Positions 17,692 to 35,506 of a stretch of 64,000 nucleotides of DNA are shown in pieces (positions within the stretch are counted from its first letter, which is position 1; each line of letters opens with the position of its first letter). The translations under genes and the position numbers were made by a program. The stretch covers positions 1 through 64,000 of the forward strand of contig JAPPFM010000055.1 in the NCBI GenBank assembly GCA_028821605.1, read 5' to 3'. A model generated the notes under the pieces. The model did no database searches, had not been told where the DNA came from, and saw nothing but the letters and a program-made list of their open reading frames with translations. Source of the DNA: Candidatus Poribacteria bacterium (GTDB lineage Bacteria > Poribacteria > WGA-4E > WGA-3G).

Positions 17692-19098
17692 CTACCCACG
17701 CTGAAAAGCACGCTGCCGATAGAGATGCTCGAACAGATTTCCTTCATGTGGACTATCCCAAGAGATCTGATTCGTCGGGATTGCACCTAAATTCAGGCGG
17801 TCAATAAGCGGTGTTTCTATGAGGTTTCGCGTGAGCGATGCATCTTCTGTAATCGCGGTGGCAACGAGTGTCGCGTCGATGGCTTCAACTAATTTCGCTG
17901 GTGAAACTTCCACGACACTCACGAACGGAAACGGGAACTCCGTGTTCGCTAACGGATGTTCCGCATCCTCACACCATATCACAGTCGGTCTGAGGAAAGT
18001 GCAGCCATCCAATTCGACGACTCGGTCACCCGTTGTCAATTCCGTTGCACCCGGTTCTTTGAGGTGTTGATCGATAAGCGAGGAAATACCGTGAGCAGCC
18101 TTCGGATTCGCCCACGCTGCGATTCCGGCTTGTGGGTGATCCAAGGGTTTCGGCTCAACGCGCCCTAAACGTTCCGTCAACGCCTCGGCAATCTCACGTC
18201 CGTATGCTGTTACCCATACACCAGAGGCGTTAATACAGGATCTTCCCCCGTTCTTGGCAACCGACTCTACAATCAAATCAAGATATTGCTTCCAATTGTT
18301 CTGCTCCGCTTCGTGGATGATGATTTTGCTGCGTCCGGGTCCGTGGATTTCAACACGGGGCGTGTTGAGCCACGGTGCGACGGTTGAACCACCACCGAAA
18401 AGCATAGAACGCCCACATCGGACAAGGATTTCATTAGCACCAGAATAATCGGTAGGATAGAAACTGAACGCCTCCGCGGGAGCACCGGCTTCGATAAACG
18501 CTTGTGCTATCCGATAGGGTGTCCACGGCTCTTCACGTCCCGGTTTTAGGACGAGCGGCACCTTCAACGGAACAGCAGGCACCCACAACGAATGCACACC
18601 CGGTGAATTGCTCGGCAGGACAGCACCCAAGGAATCCGTTTCACAGACATAACTTAACGTCCGTCCGTTTTGGACACCCCACCCAGTGTCAAGCACTTGC
18701 AAATCGAGTCCTCGGGTGAGTCCGTCCAAAACCGTGTCTATGTTTTCCAAGACACCTTGAATCTTGACTAAATTCTGCTGACAGAGTGCTTCGGGCAAGC
18801 CAGTTGTTCCAGAGACCTGTTGGATATAATCCGTTGGCGATTGGTCGGTCCCGTCAAGTGGCAGCGTTGCCGTTGAGAAAAGGCGCGCTGCCTCCTTGCA
18901 GATAGCGATTAATTCGGCGACAGAACGTTGACCAAGCACCTCTTTTTGGAGGGTGATGTCCACGAGGTCTTTCGCTATCAAGCCACGGTTGGCTTGGCTC
19001 ACCTCAACCAAGGGTTCGCCTGTTTTGATATGCGGCACACGGACAGTGTTCAGGCTTCTGTAGGAACGTCCGGCGCGTAGAATTGGAATGTGTATCAT
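17692..19098 (-). CDS. Aldehyde dehydrogenase family protein
   Basis: A 468-residue member of the ALDH superfamily (NAD(P)-dependent oxidation of aldehydes or acyl-CoA reduction). Visible landmarks are the nucleotide-binding PLVLKPGREEPWTPYR, a glycine-rich FGGGSTVAPW turn, and the catalytic Cys in NGGRSCINASG. The usual ELGGK segment is divergent (VEIHGPGRSK), so the substrate class is unsure. Start ATG 19098 is chosen because it directly follows the stop of the upstream gene; the frame is open a further 36 codons but only across that gene. Confidence 0.75.
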   Translation of the reverse strand: MIHIPILRAGRSYRSLNTVRVPHIKTGEPLVEVSQANRGLIAKDLVDITLQKEVLGQRSVAELIAICKEAARLFSTATLPLDGTDQSPTDYIQQVSGTTGLPEALCQQNLVKIQGVLENIDTVLDGLTRGLDLQVLDTGWGVQNGRTLSYVCETDSLGAVLPSNSPGVHSLWVPAVPLKVPLVLKPGREEPWTPYRIAQAFIEAGAPAEAFSFYPTDYSGANEILVRCGRSMLFGGGSTVAPWLNTPRVEIHGPGRSKIIIHEAEQNNWKQYLDLIVESVAKNGGRSCINASGVWVTAYGREIAEALTERLGRVEPKPLDHPQAGIAAWANPKAAHGISSLIDQHLKEPGATELTTGDRVVELDGCTFLRPTVIWCEDAEHPLANTEFPFPFVSVVEVSPAKLVEAIDATLVATAITEDASLTRNLIETPLIDRLNLGAIPTNQISWDSPHEGNLFEHLYRQRAFQRG

Positions 19099-19099
19099 T

Positions 19100-19795
19100 T
19101 TACCAGGTAATTTTCGCGACCCATCCAGAAGAAGCATCGCAATAGAGGAAATCGTCCCCATAGAGGGATAACCCGTGCGGTTCTGGACAGTCTTCAGGCA
19201 CCTCAATCACATCAAGCGGTGTGCCGTCTTCAAGATCGAGTTTGACGATGACTCTATCAGAGGTATGCGTACACCAAAGCCCATCTTCAACGCGAACCAT
19301 GCCGTGTCCACGTCCATGAGGTAACGGAAGCGTCTTTTGTATAGACCAATCCGAAATCCTGACCTTATGTGTAACCTGATCTTTGAGGGTTTGGACCCAG
19401 AGATGTCCTTCATCGTAGTGGTCATACTCGACACCGTGCGTGCCGCCGCCATCAGGTATCGGGTATCGTCCGAGGGTTTCGCCAGTATCGGGATCCACTT
19501 GGAAAATCTCACCCGTTTCGGCATCTGTATCCCGTACGGGACGCCAGCGTTCGCCAGTACCATTCGCCGCTAACCAGAGCGAGCCGCCTCCATAAGTCAT
19601 CCCGCTTGTGTTGGAGGATTCGCTTGGAATGTCGCGGATGAGTTTCGGTACGGTATAGTCCGGGTCTGATGTGATTTCAACCAAAGCGACTCTGTCGGTA
19701 ATCTGATCAACGATCCATAAACCGTCGTCCGTAACTTGCAAACCGTTCGGCACGGAATAGGGTGAACGGAAGACTTTCTCAATTTTCGTTATCAT
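19100..19795 (-). CDS. SMP-30/gluconolactonase-like beta-propeller protein
   Basis: A 231-residue propeller with repeated blade motifs (DGLWIVDQ, GSLWLAANG, GHLWVQT, DGLWCTH). Proteins of this type act as lactonases or ligand-binding propellers and carry a metal in the centre; NG and EP/HG dyads near the blades (PNGLQ, EPHGLS) resemble that site. No signal peptide. GAGGAG precedes the ATG. It lies between the candidate selenoprotein and the aldehyde dehydrogenase genes, in the same direction with one-base spacing to the latter, so all three are probably one operon. The reaction is unconfirmed. Confidence 0.7.
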   Translation of the reverse strand: MITKIEKVFRSPYSVPNGLQVTDDGLWIVDQITDRVALVEITSDPDYTVPKLIRDIPSESSNTSGMTYGGGSLWLAANGTGERWRPVRDTDAETGEIFQVDPDTGETLGRYPIPDGGGTHGVEYDHYDEGHLWVQTLKDQVTHKVRISDWSIQKTLPLPHGRGHGMVRVEDGLWCTHTSDRVIVKLDLEDGTPLDVIEVPEDCPEPHGLSLYGDDFLYCDASSGWVAKITW

Positions 19796-19816: not shown

Positions 19817-20974
19817 CTATCTATCTACTTGCGCTAAAGATGACTTTAGCCATCTAAAATATTCGGATTTTTTTTCATTACCGGGAAAAGATTTGTGAAA
19901 CTCATTCGTGGGCAGATGTTGGACAAACTCCAACGCTGGTGTCAGAATCAGAGAGTCCACCGGATATACAAAATGCGCTTGGAGTTTTGTCGCTAACATA
20001 GCGGCAGCAGCTCCTTTGGCACCGTCCTGCAGTTCGGGTAACTCTCGCAATAGAACCCAAACATTGACAAAGTGAGCGTTGAGTAACTTGATGACTTTCG
20101 ATGAAGAGAGCGGACCCGCTCTCAAAATTTTACCCGTCCCTCAGCACGATTCATCAGCAAGTGCCCCAAATAAAACTAACGCATGGATGGGGCGATTTGT
20201 TGATTTGGCGAGTTCAACGGCATCTTCAATTGGGCCCCACTCAATTTTAGCAAACTTGTAGAACGCAGTCGCTAACGTTTTGTGCGCTTCCTCCTCAGTG
20301 ATCGCTGTTTCCCATGCTATCTCACGTACAGGTGTGCTTGATAAAGTGGAAAGTTCCATGCGAGGGATAAAAGCTATGTCTGCTGCCCTGAACACATTAA
20401 CATCTACATTGCTATTGCGTGACGGAAGAAACAGAGAAAACTCGACAACTTCTCCTTCCTTTCGATTCAGTACCAATCGTCCTGCAAACTGTGATGGCAA
20501 CAAACGGATACCAAACGCGTCCAGCACGAACTGCGCATGAATTCGGAAGACAACCTCGGCGTAATCGGGCGAAATTGCCCGTAAACACGCTCTCGCACCG
20601 TCAGACTTAGGCGTTCTGTGAGAAAAGATAGTGATCTCCGTTGTTGCACCCGGGTGAAACTGACAAAGGAAAGGCAGAATCCCTTTCGGGTCAAGTTCCC
20701 AAATATCCCCTACATTAGCAGCCGAAGGTGGTAGAAAAACTTGAAAGTCAACTTGGCTGTAGTTCTTCAATGGGTGCACAGGTTTGAGATTGAAAAGTTC
20801 TAACGCCTGTTCCCACTCCATATTCACTGGTTCTGGCAACCGTGCTTTGAGCCTATCGAACTGTTCTCGTGTTGGCTGATGCAAATTGTACGTAGCATCC
20901 GCTATTGGTTCCCAATGTGCTTGCACTTGCACATCCGCTGTGCTGCTAAGAATATTACTAAAGTCCACTATCAC
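19817..20974 (-). CDS. Candidate selenoprotein with C-terminal thioredoxin-like domain (in-frame UGA as Sec278)
   Basis: Read through one UGA (20141-20143), the frame encodes 385 residues. Residues 1-240 form a uncharacterised beta-rich domain. From about 245 the sequence looks like the thioredoxin-fold segment of proteins that begin EWGPIEDAVELAKSTNRPI, continue with a strand (HALVLFGALAD) and then carry the motif Glu-Ser-Cys-UGA-Gly-Thr-Gly. After UGA the frame stays open for 107 more residues, with helix and strand (SSSKVIKLLNAHFVNVWVLL) of the same fold. A SECIS-like hairpin lies at 20106-20123. Without recoding, the protein would lose its active-site half. Selenocysteine assignment is inference; no sel genes lie in the window. 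Confidence 0.75.
20106..20123 (-). promoter_or_regulatory. SECIS-like stem-loop downstream of the UGA codon
   Basis: On the minus-strand RNA, GAGAGC and GCUCUC pair perfectly around the loop GGGUCC. The loop begins 24 nt after the UGA and has G at its first two positions, which matches the bacterial SECIS consensus (apical loop about 16-37 nt after UGA, G among the first two loop bases). Confidence 0.7.
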
Positions 20975-21004: not shown

Positions 21005-21142
21005 TTAGTAAACTCCCACGACACTCGCTTGAAGTTCCGTAAGCAGGCGGAGGTTTTCAACGCCGTCCCACGGATATTCGGGAATCGGTTCGGCGCGCTC
21101 CGCTTCGTCACGTTCTAGAAAACGGGCACAAAAAATTCTTTC
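21005..21142 (-). pseudogene. Duplicated 3' end of the PaaK-like gene
   Basis: This stretch reads FLERDEAERAEPIPEYPWDG and then LLTELQASVVGVY before TAA, nearly the same as the last 45 codons of the intact gene ending at 21872. The copy has no start and no upstream part. It directly abuts the stop of the toxin gene at 21144, so a toxin-antitoxin pair lies between the two copies. Confidence 0.75.
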
Positions 21143-21143
21143 G

Positions 21144-21404
21144 TCAACCTTCTCGAATCCGCCTTATGTATTCATCATGTTTTCCGATCCAAAACCAGTC
21201 GAATACCCCGTTCTTTTTCCGTGCTAAAGCTCTATATTCGTTACCGATTCGAATCGCCCAAAGAATCCCAACCTTTTTAAAACGAAGAGAAGGATGTCTT
21301 GAATTTCGCGTTAGCAGTTCAAATTTCTGAGGGACTCGTCTTCGAACATCGCGCGGAAGTTTCGCGCAAAACCTCCAAAAATCAGCATTCAGAATATGGC
21401 TCAT
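21144..21404 (-). CDS. RelE/ParE-superfamily toxin-like protein
   Basis: An 86-residue basic protein with the RelE/ParE-type pattern: N-terminal helices (FWRFCAKLPRDVRRRV), a middle strand set (SLRFKKVG, WAIRIGNEYRALA) and a C-terminal WFWIGKHDEY. It is clearly homologous to the toxin at 48332. Such toxins are mRNA interferases or gyrase poisons; which one cannot be told. The probable antitoxin gene lies 109 bases upstream on the same strand, a wider gap than usual. Confidence 0.75.
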   Translation of the reverse strand: MSHILNADFWRFCAKLPRDVRRRVPQKFELLTRNSRHPSLRFKKVGILWAIRIGNEYRALARKKNGVFDWFWIGKHDEYIRRIREG

Positions 21405-21513
21405 GTTGCTCTATATTTGTTCGCGTTTACTCAAAAATTTCCGATTTTTGTATCAAGAAGCCCAGTTTGTTGGACACATTTCTGTTCATAGTTATTTCAT
21501 AAGTGCTAAAAAA

Positions 21514-21846
21514 CTACTTTTCCAAGAATTTCCGGAGGTCTTCTATCTCGTAGTACCTGCCAGCTTTGAAATTTTCTTCTGCTTTTTGTAAGAGATCATC
21601 AAGATGTCCTGCTTTTAAGTCTTCCTCAATTTGTCTATCCCATTCTTCTTCTGCAGTGACTAAGGTTTCATGAAGGACTTTTGCGAGGGTTTTTAGCAAC
21701 GCTTCCTGCGTGTTTTCCTCACAACACTTGACTTTCGGAACTTCCGGTATCCACCCGATCCACGTAGCTCCATTTTTCTGAATGTGAGCGGTATAGGTTT
21801 CTTCGTATATTAGGTCTTGTATTTCAACGGTTTTAATCTCTTCCAT
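21514..21846 (-). CDS. Putative antitoxin or HicB-like small protein
   Basis: A 110-residue acidic protein. The first half has a short beta pattern with an aromatic strand (YTAHIQKNGATWIGWIPEVP) typical of HicB-like partial RNase H folds, followed by KCCEENTQEALLKTL. The second half is a charged helix (EEEWDRQIEEDLKAGHLDDLL) that could wrap a toxin. No DNA-binding domain is obvious. Placement directly before a RelE-like toxin gene makes an antitoxin role likely, but the pairing is inferred. AGGAGAT precedes the ATG. Confidence 0.6.
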   Translation of the reverse strand: MEEIKTVEIQDLIYEETYTAHIQKNGATWIGWIPEVPKVKCCEENTQEALLKTLAKVLHETLVTAEEEWDRQIEEDLKAGHLDDLLQKAEENFKAGRYYEIEDLRKFLEK

Positions 21847-21871: not shown

Positions 21872-22945
21872 TTAGTAAACACCCACGACGACACTTTCCT
21901 GGAGTTCCGTAAGCAGGCGGAGGTTCTCAACACCGTCCCACGGGTATTCGGGAATCGGTTCGGCGCGTTCGGCTTCGTCACGTTCCAGAAAACGTGGCAC
22001 AAAAAACTCTTTTGTTAACGTGGTTAGCATGACGCGCCCAGTTTCGCCGTAATCGACAAGCTCCTCCGGATTTTCAGGGTTAACCAATTCAATGATCGCG
22101 CGCGGATGCGGTGGATAATAGATAATCGCATAGTTGTCCGCTGGATCGAATGGCTTACAAGTGGCTAAACCCATAAGTGTATTCCCGTATGTTGGAATAA
22201 AATCAATGCCCGGAACGAGTTCCTCACGAGCGAAACGGTGGAACTGCGCGTCCATCTCAGTTCCGCCACAAAAGATACCTTTAATACCGACCTTTGGCAA
22301 CGAAATTTTCTCACACAACGCCTCTAACAACTTTGGCGTGGTGAAAAGACATTGGACGTTTTCATGGGCGCGCAGCACATTGAGTGCTTGTGAGATGACA
22401 TGGTTTTTATACGCGTCCAATTCCTCATTTTTCCCGTAACGCACGAGTTGGTTCACCCAACGTGGGTCAAGATCGACGTGGAAACAGATGCCACCCCGAT
22501 GTTGTGCGAGATGCTCAACGGCGAGCCGTAAACGCCGCGGCCCCGTTGGACCTAACATCAGCCAATCGCTACCGGGTGGGAAACTCTCATCAGAAAGCGT
22601 TTCACTGAATATTTCATAATCAATGTGAAAATCACGTACACTAATGCGCGACTTCGGTACGCCTGTCGAACCACCGGTTTCAAAAACATAAATAGGATCA
22701 TTGGCGTAAGCCTTCGGGACCCAGCGTCGGACGGGTCCACCACGGAGCCATTCGTCTTGGAAATGTCCGAGACACTTGAGATCCGCATAGCCACCGATCT
22801 CTTTTCGCGGGTCAAAATCAAGGTTTTCTGCGTACTCCAGCCAGAAGGGACATCCTGTCTTTGGGCTAAAGTGCCATTTGACGATTTCCCGGACGTGTGC
22901 ATCGAGTGCTTTTCGGGCTTCATTAATTTTTCGGGTAAGGTTCAT
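21872..22945 (-). CDS. PaaK-like adenylate-forming enzyme
   Basis: A 357-residue protein related to phenylacetate-CoA ligase and other acyl-adenylating enzymes. The ATP/phosphate motif is visible as ETGGSTGVPKSR, followed by LMLGPTGPRRL and the later FIPTYGNTLMGLA, with a GE-T-G-R-V motif (YGETGRVMLTT) near the C-terminus. It is shorter than PaaK (about 430 residues) and seems to lack the last mobile subdomain. ATG 22945 is preferred since the domain starts there; an in-frame ATG at 22990 would add 15 residues. The substrate is unknown. Its last 45 codons are duplicated at 21005-21142. Confidence 0.75.
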   Translation of the reverse strand: MNLTRKINEARKALDAHVREIVKWHFSPKTGCPFWLEYAENLDFDPRKEIGGYADLKCLGHFQDEWLRGGPVRRWVPKAYANDPIYVFETGGSTGVPKSRISVRDFHIDYEIFSETLSDESFPPGSDWLMLGPTGPRRLRLAVEHLAQHRGGICFHVDLDPRWVNQLVRYGKNEELDAYKNHVISQALNVLRAHENVQCLFTTPKLLEALCEKISLPKVGIKGIFCGGTEMDAQFHRFAREELVPGIDFIPTYGNTLMGLATCKPFDPADNYAIIYYPPHPRAIIELVNPENPEELVDYGETGRVMLTTLTKEFFVPRFLERDEAERAEPIPEYPWDGVENLRLLTELQESVVVGVY

Positions 22946-22996
22946 TTGTATAAAACTTTCTACAAAGTACCATTTACTTGGCACTTTCAAATTTAA

Positions 22997-23257
22997 CTAA
23001 TCAATGTGTTCAACTGATTCCCTAACGTGCTCAACTAAAACAACATTCACTAAGGTCTCAATTGACACACCTCGCGCGCGCGCTTTTTTCATAAGTTCTT
23101 CAGCGATTTCCGGAAGAATTGCCACACGAATCGCTTGATTCGTCTCAAAACGAAACCATTCTCCATCGTCTCCCATAAAATCGGCGGTGTCAAGGTTATC
23201 CCAAAAAGCGGCTTCTTCTTCGTAAGTCGAAAACTCTGGTACTTGCAACGCTTTCAT
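22997..23257 (-). CDS. brnA: BrnA/CopG-like antitoxin
   Basis: An 86-residue protein: an acidic N-terminal part (FSTYEEEAAFWDNLDTADF) that is typical of the toxin-binding arm in CopG-like BrnA antitoxins, then a ribbon-helix-helix-like segment (IRVAILPEIAEELMKKARARGVSIETLVN). The N-terminus overlaps the end of the upstream toxin gene by four bases. BrnA binds BrnT and represses the operon. The toxin-first order is the one seen in brnTA operons. Confidence 0.8.
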   Translation of the reverse strand: MKALQVPEFSTYEEEAAFWDNLDTADFMGDDGEWFRFETNQAIRVAILPEIAEELMKKARARGVSIETLVNVVLVEHVRESVEHID

Positions 23258-23526
23258 TTTTGGAGTCTCCTAAAATTTCGTTTTTCGCGTTCAGTCATAT
23301 TTCGTGCAGTAATAGGTTTATACACAGACTCTTGGATACGCTCCAATACTATAAATAGATACCGCCCATCCAAGGTTTGTCCATAAACAAGATAGCGATT
23401 GCGTCCTTGACGGCGTGCTAAGTGGGACCTGTCATCACAGACTTCCCATACTTCACGCGGTTCTACATTATGTCGGGCAATATGTTCAACGCGATAGTCG
23501 TCCCAATCCAATCGGTCGATATACAT
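23254..23526 (-). CDS. brnT: BrnT-like toxin
   Basis: A 90-residue protein with the BrnT pattern: WDDYRVEHIARHNV at the start, EVWEVCDD in the middle, RYLVYGQTLDGRYLFIV strands and a C-terminal ITARNMTEREKR. BrnT is a RelE-fold ribonuclease that stops growth by cleaving RNA. It overlaps the antitoxin gene by ATGA, and the pair lies apart from the neighbouring operons. Confidence 0.85.
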   Translation of the reverse strand: MYIDRLDWDDYRVEHIARHNVEPREVWEVCDDRSHLARRQGRNRYLVYGQTLDGRYLFIVLERIQESVYKPITARNMTEREKRNFRRLQK

Positions 23527-27600: not shown

Positions 27601-28374
27601 TTACTGATTTGACCTGGATTTGGTCTGCTTCTTAACGCGGATTAATGGAATCTTGTGCGGTGAGGCATCCTCATAACGTTCGGTTGACGCTCCATCAAAA
27701 TGGTACAAACCGAGTGTATCATCGTCTGAAGTAAATGCGCCAATCGGTGTGTTATAAGCACCTACGTCATAACGCACAACACGGCTGATTCTCAGTTCGT
27801 CAATATACATCCCAGAGGCAGGAACCGCTTTCAATCCACTCTTCTTCAGAACTGGAACACCACCGATAAGGAGGGGTTCACTCACAGGTGCGAGACGGCT
27901 CCCGGGTGCTAATCCAGAGATAACTCCGCCGCATCCAACAGTAGAGCCACCGTCAATTATTGCTACGTAATAGACCCACCGCCTGGTAGGTAGTGTCCCT
28001 CATATTTTTCCAGATCCACCCTCAACGCCCCTTGTGACGATAGCGGGACTGGCTTTGTATCCATCACCAACAACGGCACAGGTGAATCGGTCTGTCTGAC
28101 CCGCTATGGAAAAGGCGGCACGAGATCCAGCCTCCAGTGATATGATATCCTGAACGCTCGGTGGTCTGTCTATGTAGACCCACGCTTCAATCGTTAGCGG
28201 ACCCGGATAATCGGGAAACCACGGTTTTTCGGTTTGCACGAATGGCAGTTTAGGATTCAGTTCAAGCCAACCCCCTCCAGCAGGAGAAGGTTCATGCGGT
28301 GCTGCAAGGAGCGGTAAAGGCACTGTAAAAATAATGCCTATAATCATCAAGAAAATTTTTCTAATATATTGCAT
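27601..28374 (-). pseudogene. LamG-domain secreted protein interrupted by in-frame UGA
   Basis: Read through one UGA (28000-28002), the frame encodes 257 residues that align along the whole length with the next gene upstream (28522): same signal peptide region and PHEPSPAGGGWLELNP, then a LamG core with YPGPLTIEAWVYI and the C-terminal FTSDDDTLGLYHFDGAST. The UGA falls in a loop where the intact relative has Thr (SGMVTTH); no cysteine is near. A nonsense mutation that inactivates one of two tandem copies is the simplest reading, though the region after the UGA can fold into a short stem-loop. Confidence 0.65.
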
Positions 28375-28521: not shown

Positions 28522-29409
28522 TCAGATCATCATGATCATTAGGTTCATTAGTTCGAGGAAAAAATTCTCCAACCTTGATCGGGCAGATTTCAGGGTGCCC
28601 CATATAGTGGCTAATTTATAGAGGGCTTCGACCGCAAGTTTTTCCTTTTTGGATTCGGCATTTTCTTTACTACGAATTAACGGAATCCGGTACTCTGACG
28701 TGTCCTGGTAGTGTTCTGTTGATTGACCATCAAAATGATATAATCCGAGTGTATCAATATCCGATGTAAACGCCTTGGTTGGAACAGTATAATTTTCACC
28801 CAACTTGTAGCGCAGGACACGACTGATTCGCAGTTCATCAATATATACCCCTGTCCCAAGAACCGTTTCTTGCTTGTTCGGAAAAGCAATTTCAGTCAAT
28901 ACTGGCACCCCACCTATGATCAATCGGTTGTTAGCAGTTGCCAGAGATTCCCCGTGACTTATTTGTGTAATAAAACCGCTGCTTCCTACAGTAACACCAT
29001 TGTCAATTACCGTTACGTAATGTACCCATTTCCTCGCTGGTAGATGTGTGGTGACCATACCTGAAGTTCCATTATGTTCCTGGGTAAGAATGCCTCCAAT
29101 AGAATCTGGAACACCATCAAAGTTACTATCTCCAGAATGTCCAAGAATTGCCCAATTGAAACGACTTGTTTGTCCAACAAGTGAGAAAGCACTTTGGAGG
29201 TTCGGCGGTTCTTCTATATATACCCATGCCTCAATCGTTAGCGGACCCGGATAATCGGGAAACCACGGTTTTTCGGTTTGCACGAGCGGCAGCTCCGGAT
29301 TCAGTTCAAGCCAACCACCTCCAGCAGGGGAAGGTTCATGCGGTGCCGCAGAGAGTGTTAAAGGCAGCATCAAGAGGATCATCAAAAGTGTCTTTTTGAC
29401 ATATTTCAT
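28522..29409 (-). CDS. Secreted LamG-domain protein
   Basis: A 295-residue protein with a signal peptide (residues about 6-21) and a LamG/concanavalin-like domain (YPGPLTIEAWVYI, RKWVHYVTVIDNG, VYIDELRISRVLRY, DIDTLGLYHFDG). LamG domains bind polysaccharide or protein; no enzyme signature is seen. GGAGGTAT precedes the ATG. It starts 19 bases after the sigma-propeller gene and is likely co-transcribed with it. It has a broken tandem copy at 27601-28374. Confidence 0.8.
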   Translation of the reverse strand: MKYVKKTLLMILLMLPLTLSAAPHEPSPAGGGWLELNPELPLVQTEKPWFPDYPGPLTIEAWVYIEEPPNLQSAFSLVGQTSRFNWAILGHSGDSNFDGVPDSIGGILTQEHNGTSGMVTTHLPARKWVHYVTVIDNGVTVGSSGFITQISHGESLATANNRLIIGGVPVLTEIAFPNKQETVLGTGVYIDELRISRVLRYKLGENYTVPTKAFTSDIDTLGLYHFDGQSTEHYQDTSEYRIPLIRSKENAESKKEKLAVEALYKLATIWGTLKSARSRLENFFLELMNLMIMMI

Positions 29410-34720: not shown

Positions 34721-35506
34721 TCAGCACGCATCTAATTCACGCAAAATCCGTTCCACAACCTGTTTCCGTTGTCCCTGAACTGCGGGCTGCTCCAACTCGT
34801 AGACTTCATCCGAAATCAGGTGTTTGTGGCTTTCAATGGGAAGGGAATTGTGTGATGCGTTGTCAATATAACGGTTAAAAATAGTGTATCGGGGATAGGA
34901 TTCCGTCCAGCGTCTTCCACCGTGATAGAGTGCTTCAGTAAAGACAACACAATCACCAGCATTGACAGGGACGTTGATAACCGTTGGGGGTCCGTCATAA
35001 ATTGATAGGTCATCGGGCGGTTCAAAGTTACGCTTGTGGCTTCCGGGAAGACAGACGAACCCTGTCCCTGATGGCACGTCAACTAACGAAGTCCCAGCGT
35101 TGAGGAAACCCGCTCGAGGTCCAGATTCGTCCACGCTATAATCTTGACCGGAGGCATGGAAGTGGATGTCATTGGAGGTTTTGTAGTTCTTCGTCAAGGC
35201 GCAATCAACGAGACAGGGAGTCCCCCGCGTCAGGGCGATAATCACCCGCATAATCTCGCGGTTAAGCACAAGCCGTTGAAAGACGGGATCACCGTATTGG
35301 ATATGATTAACCCAATGGGCAATCGTCGAGGAATGATCACCGGTTCGGGATGTAGAGGTGAGCGGTGCAGGAAGCTCATCCAAGGGCGTGTCATGCCACT
35401 GGTTACCGAGTTCAATCATTCGTTGGATGTCCTCAGGTGGCACAACTTTTCGGAGGATGATGAATCCGTGGTGGTCAAAAAACCATTTTTCGTGAGGTGT
35501 GAGCAT
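34721..35506 (-). CDS. Phytanoyl-CoA dioxygenase (PhyH) family protein with altered metal motif
   Basis: A 261-residue PhyH-type protein (Fe(II)/2-oxoglutarate fold). The start (LTPHEKWFFDHHGFIILR), the FVCLPGSHK segment and the second metal His195 (ALYHGG) are clear. The first HxD motif is HFHASG: His117 is followed by Ala-Ser, so the Asp ligand is missing, unlike the paralogue at 56603. Either the iron site is lost or a nearby residue (Asp122) substitutes. Substrate unknown. AAGGAATGTA precedes the ATG. It sits between a LamG gene and the 707-residue protein. Confidence 0.8.
   Translation of the reverse strand: MLTPHEKWFFDHHGFIILRKVVPPEDIQRMIELGNQWHDTPLDELPAPLTSTSRTGDHSSTIAHWVNHIQYGDPVFQRLVLNREIMRVIIALTRGTPCLVDCALTKNYKTSNDIHFHASGQDYSVDESGPRAGFLNAGTSLVDVPSGTGFVCLPGSHKRNFEPPDDLSIYDGPPTVINVPVNAGDCVVFTEALYHGGRRWTESYPRYTIFNRYIDNASHNSLPIESHKHLISDEVYELEQPAVQGQRKQVVERILRELDAC

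Follow-up and report, generated by a model that had tools for sequence, protein, structure and literature searches.

Closest Described Systems

Mammalian thioredoxin reductase has adjacent Cys and Sec residues followed by Gly, which are in principle able to form a vicinal selenenylsulfide. This enzyme has no homology to the protein described here; its Cys-Sec pair lies in the C-terminal tail of a flavoenzyme, whereas the present pair lies inside a thioredoxin fold. The C-terminal domain of the present protein shares the thioredoxin fold with the Thioredox_DsbH/DUF255 domain (PF03190; PDB 7tkv and 2ju5) and with 2lst and 1sen. In contrast to DsbH/DUF255, the protein appears to have Sec for the first Cys and Gly for the second, with an extra Cys before the Sec, and it has a novel N-terminal domain and a sub-threshold sequence score.

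A 2026 review catalogues the motifs of 119 prokaryotic selenoprotein families and subfamilies (PMC13188914). Among them, the CU selenoproteins (SaoC, SaoL, HgcA, KCU-star, MbdU, and the Csac_0668 family) likewise have a Cys directly before the Sec. NCBIfam has models for most of the CU families but gave no match for the present protein at E <= 0.5. The Sec-containing thioredoxin and thiol:disulfide families of the same catalogue (UxxC, WAxxUGC, and VPGUxxT) have the fold, the active-site Sec, and the downstream bSECIS in common with it. It differs from them in having UxxG instead of UxxC, in its large paralogous expansion, and in that no Cys homologues were found in its phylum. None of the 119 catalogued families has this motif together with this architecture. 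According to the deep-Sep paper, Cys homologues now seem to exist for every known selenoprotein, and the method described there may discard selenoproteins that lack them (PMC12013277). No paper naming both Poribacteria and selenoproteins was found in the open literature searched, where the two papers pairing Poribacteria with selenocysteine mention selenocysteine only once each; with a search of open papers only, a prior description is possible.

A UGA Codon Conserved in Poribacteria

The window analyzed here is a stretch of 64,000 nucleotides from a Candidatus Poribacteria metagenome-assembled genome (MAG) of 6.0 Mb (98.0% complete, 3.1% contamination). As the first-pass annotation had described, a minus-strand frame of 277 codons is followed by a UGA at 20141-20143, 107 further codons, and a stop codon. 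The UGA has the context Ser-Cys-UGA-Gly, and the peptide across it reads ..LADESC-U-GTGKILRAGPLSS.. The features of the locus are listed in Table 1. From the evidence given below, this gene almost certainly encodes a selenoprotein.

Table 1. Features of the selenoprotein locus in the window
Feature	Position	Strand	Basis or remark
Predicted selenoprotein gene, 385 residues with Sec278	19817..20974	-	Frame and translation; orthologues align over the full length
Stop codon of the gene	19817-19819	-	
Start codon GTG of the gene	20974	-	Alternative GTG at 20968 possible
In-frame UGA, predicted Sec278	20141..20143	-	UGA in 12/12 orthologues
Cys277 codon, invariant residue just before Sec	20144..20146	-	46/46 in alignment A2
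bSECIS hairpin, 7-bp stem GAGAGCG/CGCUCUC, loop GGUC at 20113-20116	20106..20123	-	
N-terminal beta-rich domain, residues 1-224, no known family	20303..20974	-	Model, profile and structure searches
C-terminal thioredoxin-fold domain, residues 225-385, DsbH/DUF255-like, motif ESC-U-GTGK	19820..20302	-	
Weak virginiamycin B lyase-like beta-propeller match, downstream	19100..19795	-	Synteny conserved
Aldehyde-dehydrogenase-family gene, downstream	17692..19206	-	Synteny conserved
AMP-binding ligase-like gene, upstream	21872..22990	-	

Is the UGA conserved? I found 12 orthologues, 81-90% identical and all from Poribacteria MAGs, and every one has the UGA at the site; three of them (L016, L021, and L022) have extra frame or stop-codon differences elsewhere in the gene. 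A profile built from the orthologues picks out 12 family members in the host genome, of which 11 have UGA and the other has GGC (Gly). With this profile, the family was detected in 65 of 85 Poribacteria genomes, some of them single-contig assemblies. Since the same UGA occurs in independent genomes, several of them single-contig, assembly error is excluded; the earlier doubt about a sequencing error is thus answered by these genomes rather than by re-sequencing. The family was also searched at the DNA level with the pattern D-E-x-C-any-[GA]-x-G-K, which gave 376 matches in 65 genomes, with TGA at the site in all among the matches listed. Some other Poribacteria genomes have up to 15 motif matches. 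When the codon was required not to end in A, only two matches were obtained in the 85 Poribacteria genomes, both GGC and orthologous to each other, and no Trp or Cys sense codon was found at the site. U is present in 67 of the 69 distinct sequences read and Gly in the other two. The homologues foreseen in the first-pass annotation were therefore found in part: relatives keep the UGA at the same site, but the expected Cys homologues are absent, with no intact Cys version in the 85 genomes, an absence that holds for the phylum only. Such homologues are usual for a bacterial selenoprotein but do not define one. An apparent TGY (Cys) in genome G070 belongs to a broken gene, in which the similarity to the family ends immediately past the Sec site and the thioredoxin half is missing. 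Searches beyond the phylum gave no homologues in viral contigs or plasmids.

In a maximum-likelihood tree, the family falls into two deep clades, both of which have UGA save for the Gly pair at one tip. Thus, the ancestor of the family probably already had Sec, and the sampled rows point to a single loss. The Gly pair, L073:7639-9336 (G000, C2) and L110 (G076, C102), is the only Sec-free orthologous pair, with GGC for UGA. The mean dN/dS was 0.235 before the UGA and 0.202 after it; these sequence comparisons indicate that both halves of the gene are under purifying selection, with equal constraint on either side of the UGA.

The SECIS Hairpin

The first-pass annotation had placed a 6-bp stem with a GGGUCC loop downstream of the UGA. 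The hairpin is real and is located there, but it is better described as a 7-bp stem with a GGUC loop. The distance from the UGA is 17 nt to the stem and 24 nt to the loop, and the minimum free energy (MFE) is -11.9 kcal/mol. The published bacterial SECIS model asks for a loop of 3-9 nt, a G in the first two loop positions, a spacing of 16-37 nt, and an MFE <= -7.5 (PMC13188914), and the hairpin agrees with all four constraints. A comparable hairpin accompanies 59 of the 2353 TGA triplets in the window (2.5%), so the hairpin by itself is weak evidence; the case rises above chance because of conservation in relatives.

The family hairpin occurs in two registers, class A (GAGRGCG-GGUC-CGCUCUC) and class B (GAGGRC-AGKU-GYCCUC). 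Class B has 2 nt less between the outer arms, tracking a change in the protein from Gly-Pro to Gly/Val-Val. Thus, the RNA structure has been kept though the amino acids differ. On average, 6.97 of 7 pairs form in class A (36 sequences) and 5.86 of 6 in class B (29 sequences). Class A has double changes from G-C to C-G and from C-G to U-A, and no shuffle reached its observed paired fraction or covariation score; the covariation of class B is weaker. The mean MFE of the 65 sequences was -10.3 kcal/mol, compared with -5.0 kcal/mol for synonymous recodings. A G is present at loop position 1 or 2 in 65/65 UGA members. In both Gly members, the stem is still largely present and the loop is AACU; the lack of the loop G fits a loss of Sec insertion. 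The informative tests were the synonymous-recoding energy and the pair counts. In a sliding-window analysis of synonymous sites among close orthologues, the hairpin was not visible as a dip in divergence. The Rfam SECIS_1 model had no match in the genome and likewise none in 14 control genomes, and hence is uninformative, and no Rfam model matched the locus.

The Selenium Machinery of the Host

The first-pass annotation had called for selA, selB, selC, and selD in the same genome, and all four are there. The host encodes SelA (E 4e-180, 600 bits), SelB (E 3.5e-105, 353 bits), and SelD (E 5.5e-107), and a tRNASec with the anticodon UCA adjoins selB on the same strand. The gene for the host SelD is itself interrupted by a single in-frame TGA, located at the usual Sec site (KCAG-U). 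SelA was found in 72 of the 85 Poribacteria genomes and in 57 of the 65 that have the selenoprotein family; the other eight (G027, G030, G033, G035, G049, G061, G062, and G078) are draft MAGs of 73-96% completeness. The UGA would be decoded as selenocysteine by the genome's own SelA, SelB, tRNASec, and SelD, directed by the hairpin.

A Predicted Thioredoxin Fold with a Novel N-terminal Domain

The AlphaFold2 model of the window protein has a mean pLDDT of 90.3. In the model, the strands of the beta-rich domain lie between residues 14 and 210 and the thioredoxin fold spans residues 263-384; the first helical turn past the strand 263-268 begins with Sec278. Only the thioredoxin part gave Foldseek matches, to DsbH-type domains (7tkv, E 5.6e-5; 2lst; 2ju5) with a probability of 1.00. 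At the sequence level, Pfam Thioredox_DsbH matched below its gathering cut-off (15.1 versus 27 bits), and the best match to it among 46 family members had an E value of 0.0087. The window protein scores below the cut-off of every Pfam and NCBIfam model, and sequence searches of the PDB gave chance matches only. The thioredoxin-like fold proposed from the sequence is thus borne out by the model and Foldseek, as is the familyless N-terminal part, which no Pfam, NCBIfam, Foldseek, or PDB sequence search matched.

Ten residues are invariant in the 46-sequence alignment: Trp92, Gln105, Cys130, Arg144, His146, His264, Glu275, Cys277, Gly281, and Lys282, of which Cys130, Arg144, and His146 sit in the N-terminal domain. 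Sec278 is present in 45 of the 46 sequences. The two-cysteine redox motif of PF03190 is replaced by C-U-x-x-G-K with the invariant Gly281. If Lys282 corresponds to the Lys after the CxxC of many thioredoxins, Sec is at the first Cys, Gly281 at the second, and Cys277 at the Trp position. A profile alignment with a DsbD-type thioredoxin had a probability of 0.4% and serves only as a hint for this K/K register. From the model and this very weak alignment, I infer that Sec278 may occupy the nucleophile position.

Most paralogues are longer (500-660 residues) and have additional C-terminal parts. One paralogue (C54; L076:2121-4004) has a C-terminal AhpC-TSA/ResA-like domain (E 3e-18), through which alone it matches NCBIfam redox families, below their cut-offs. 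The fused TlpA/ResA-like domain has the motif WAVWNSFC, with Asn where WCxxC has its first Cys. Some paralogues have an NTF2-like tail (weak matches), and others have a beta-type tail matching no family. A signal-peptide-like start, read by eye, is present in some paralogues and absent from the window protein. Tandem clusters of paralogues were found in C1 (4 copies), C16 (3), and C2 (2). Duplications within Poribacteria would have enlarged the family, and its copies probably include both cytosolic and exported forms.

The Gene Neighborhood

Among the orthologue loci, the order AMP-binding ligase, selenoprotein, beta-propeller, aldehyde dehydrogenase, and sulfatase is largely kept, which suggests a metabolic operon. 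In the window, the end of the AMP-binding gene is present twice, as direct repeats of 118 nt (87%) at 21018-21135 and 21888-22005. Between the two copies (21144-21846) lie genes for a ParE-like toxin and a putative antitoxin. This ParE-like module appears to be an insertion that separates the ligase gene from the selenoprotein gene, because relatives such as L012 and L016 do not have it. In L012 and L016, about 34 nt separate the end of the AMP-binding gene from the selenoprotein gene. A BrnT toxin gene (E 1e-8) is located at 22997-23526, and the small downstream gene overlapping it probably encodes a BrnA-type antitoxin.

Proposed Chemistry and Alternative Readings

Taken as a whole, the reading of a two-domain selenoprotein with both Sec decoding and a redox role is very probably correct, and a thioredoxin-type role, taken separately, is likely. 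In the proposed mechanism, Sec278 would attack a peroxide, a disulfide, or another electrophile, and Cys277 would resolve it as a vicinal selenenylsulfide, as mammalian thioredoxin reductase does with its Gly-Cys-Sec-Gly tail. Reduction of Cys277-Sec278 might then fall to a partner of the thioredoxin/TlpA type. A Cys-Sec redox pair, as suggested in the first-pass annotation, is plausible, and the case for the selenenylsulfide step is evenly balanced. Cys277 is taken here as the resolving residue; the invariant Cys130 could serve instead.

It is unlikely, though worth weighing, that the vicinal Cys-Sec binds a metal or an organometal such as mercury, or scavenges electrophiles, without catalytic thiol-disulfide or peroxide chemistry. 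Links to metals or mercury exist for several CU-motif selenoproteins in the catalogue (MerB-like SaoL, HgcA, and MbdU; PMC13188914), and the replacement of the second thioredoxin Cys with an invariant Gly would suit such a function. Against it, the model puts Sec at the start of the active-site helix of a thioredoxin fold, one paralogue carries a fused thiol-disulfide domain of the ResA type, and the conserved neighbors include no metal-resistance genes. The redox reading is preferred.

Any in-frame stop may be a mutation, and the window gene has a TTG six codons downstream of the UGA, so that the UGA might be a plain stop, in a nonsense mutant or with re-initiation giving two products. This is very improbable, because the UGA is kept in all the orthologues and in deep paralogues, both gene halves are under the same constraint, and the hairpin is under selection; as for re-initiation, codon +6 is CTG in 11/69 and TTC in 2/69 sequences, and 10/69 lack any start codon within 19 codons. 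Readthrough without Sec, by Trp recoding, a suppressor tRNA, or programmed readthrough, is just as improbable given the complete Sec machinery, the SECIS covariation, the UGA at the usual Sec site of SelD, the absence of a Trp or Cys sense codon at the site, and the use of UGA as an ordinary stop in the same window (e.g., at 34721-34723).

The last-named triplet has a C-TGA-G context that mimics the Cys-Sec site; it is the plain stop of a 261-aa ORF (34721-35506), and the next in-frame ATG begins 9 nt after it. No other frame in the window interrupted by a single TGA was a convincing selenoprotein candidate. A copy (27601-28374) of the Laminin_G-like gene at 28522-29409 is apparently split by a TGA near 28002; there is no hairpin at this TGA, and the copy is likely a pseudogene.

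Implications

The multi-copy nature of the family and the phylum-wide absence of Cys go beyond what the reading of a single sequence could show. It is tentatively proposed that this is a Sec-obligate, deep, multi-copy family in which Cys never replaces Sec, the chemistry needs selenium, and the loss of Sec leads straight to a non-redox Gly; this may or may not prove right, with the balance slightly against it. If true, a Sec-obligate family would contradict the published view that no known selenoprotein appears to lack Cys-containing homologues (PMC12013277). Because selenoprotein finders commonly pair a UGA with Cys homologues, a family without Cys homologues is likely to be missed and annotated as truncated hypothetical proteins. 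One such family accounts for 11 selenoproteins in a single genome. With its Gly loss variant, it is a natural set for testing why Sec is used rather than Cys, and it points to heavy selenium use in Poribacteria, a major phylum of sponge symbionts.
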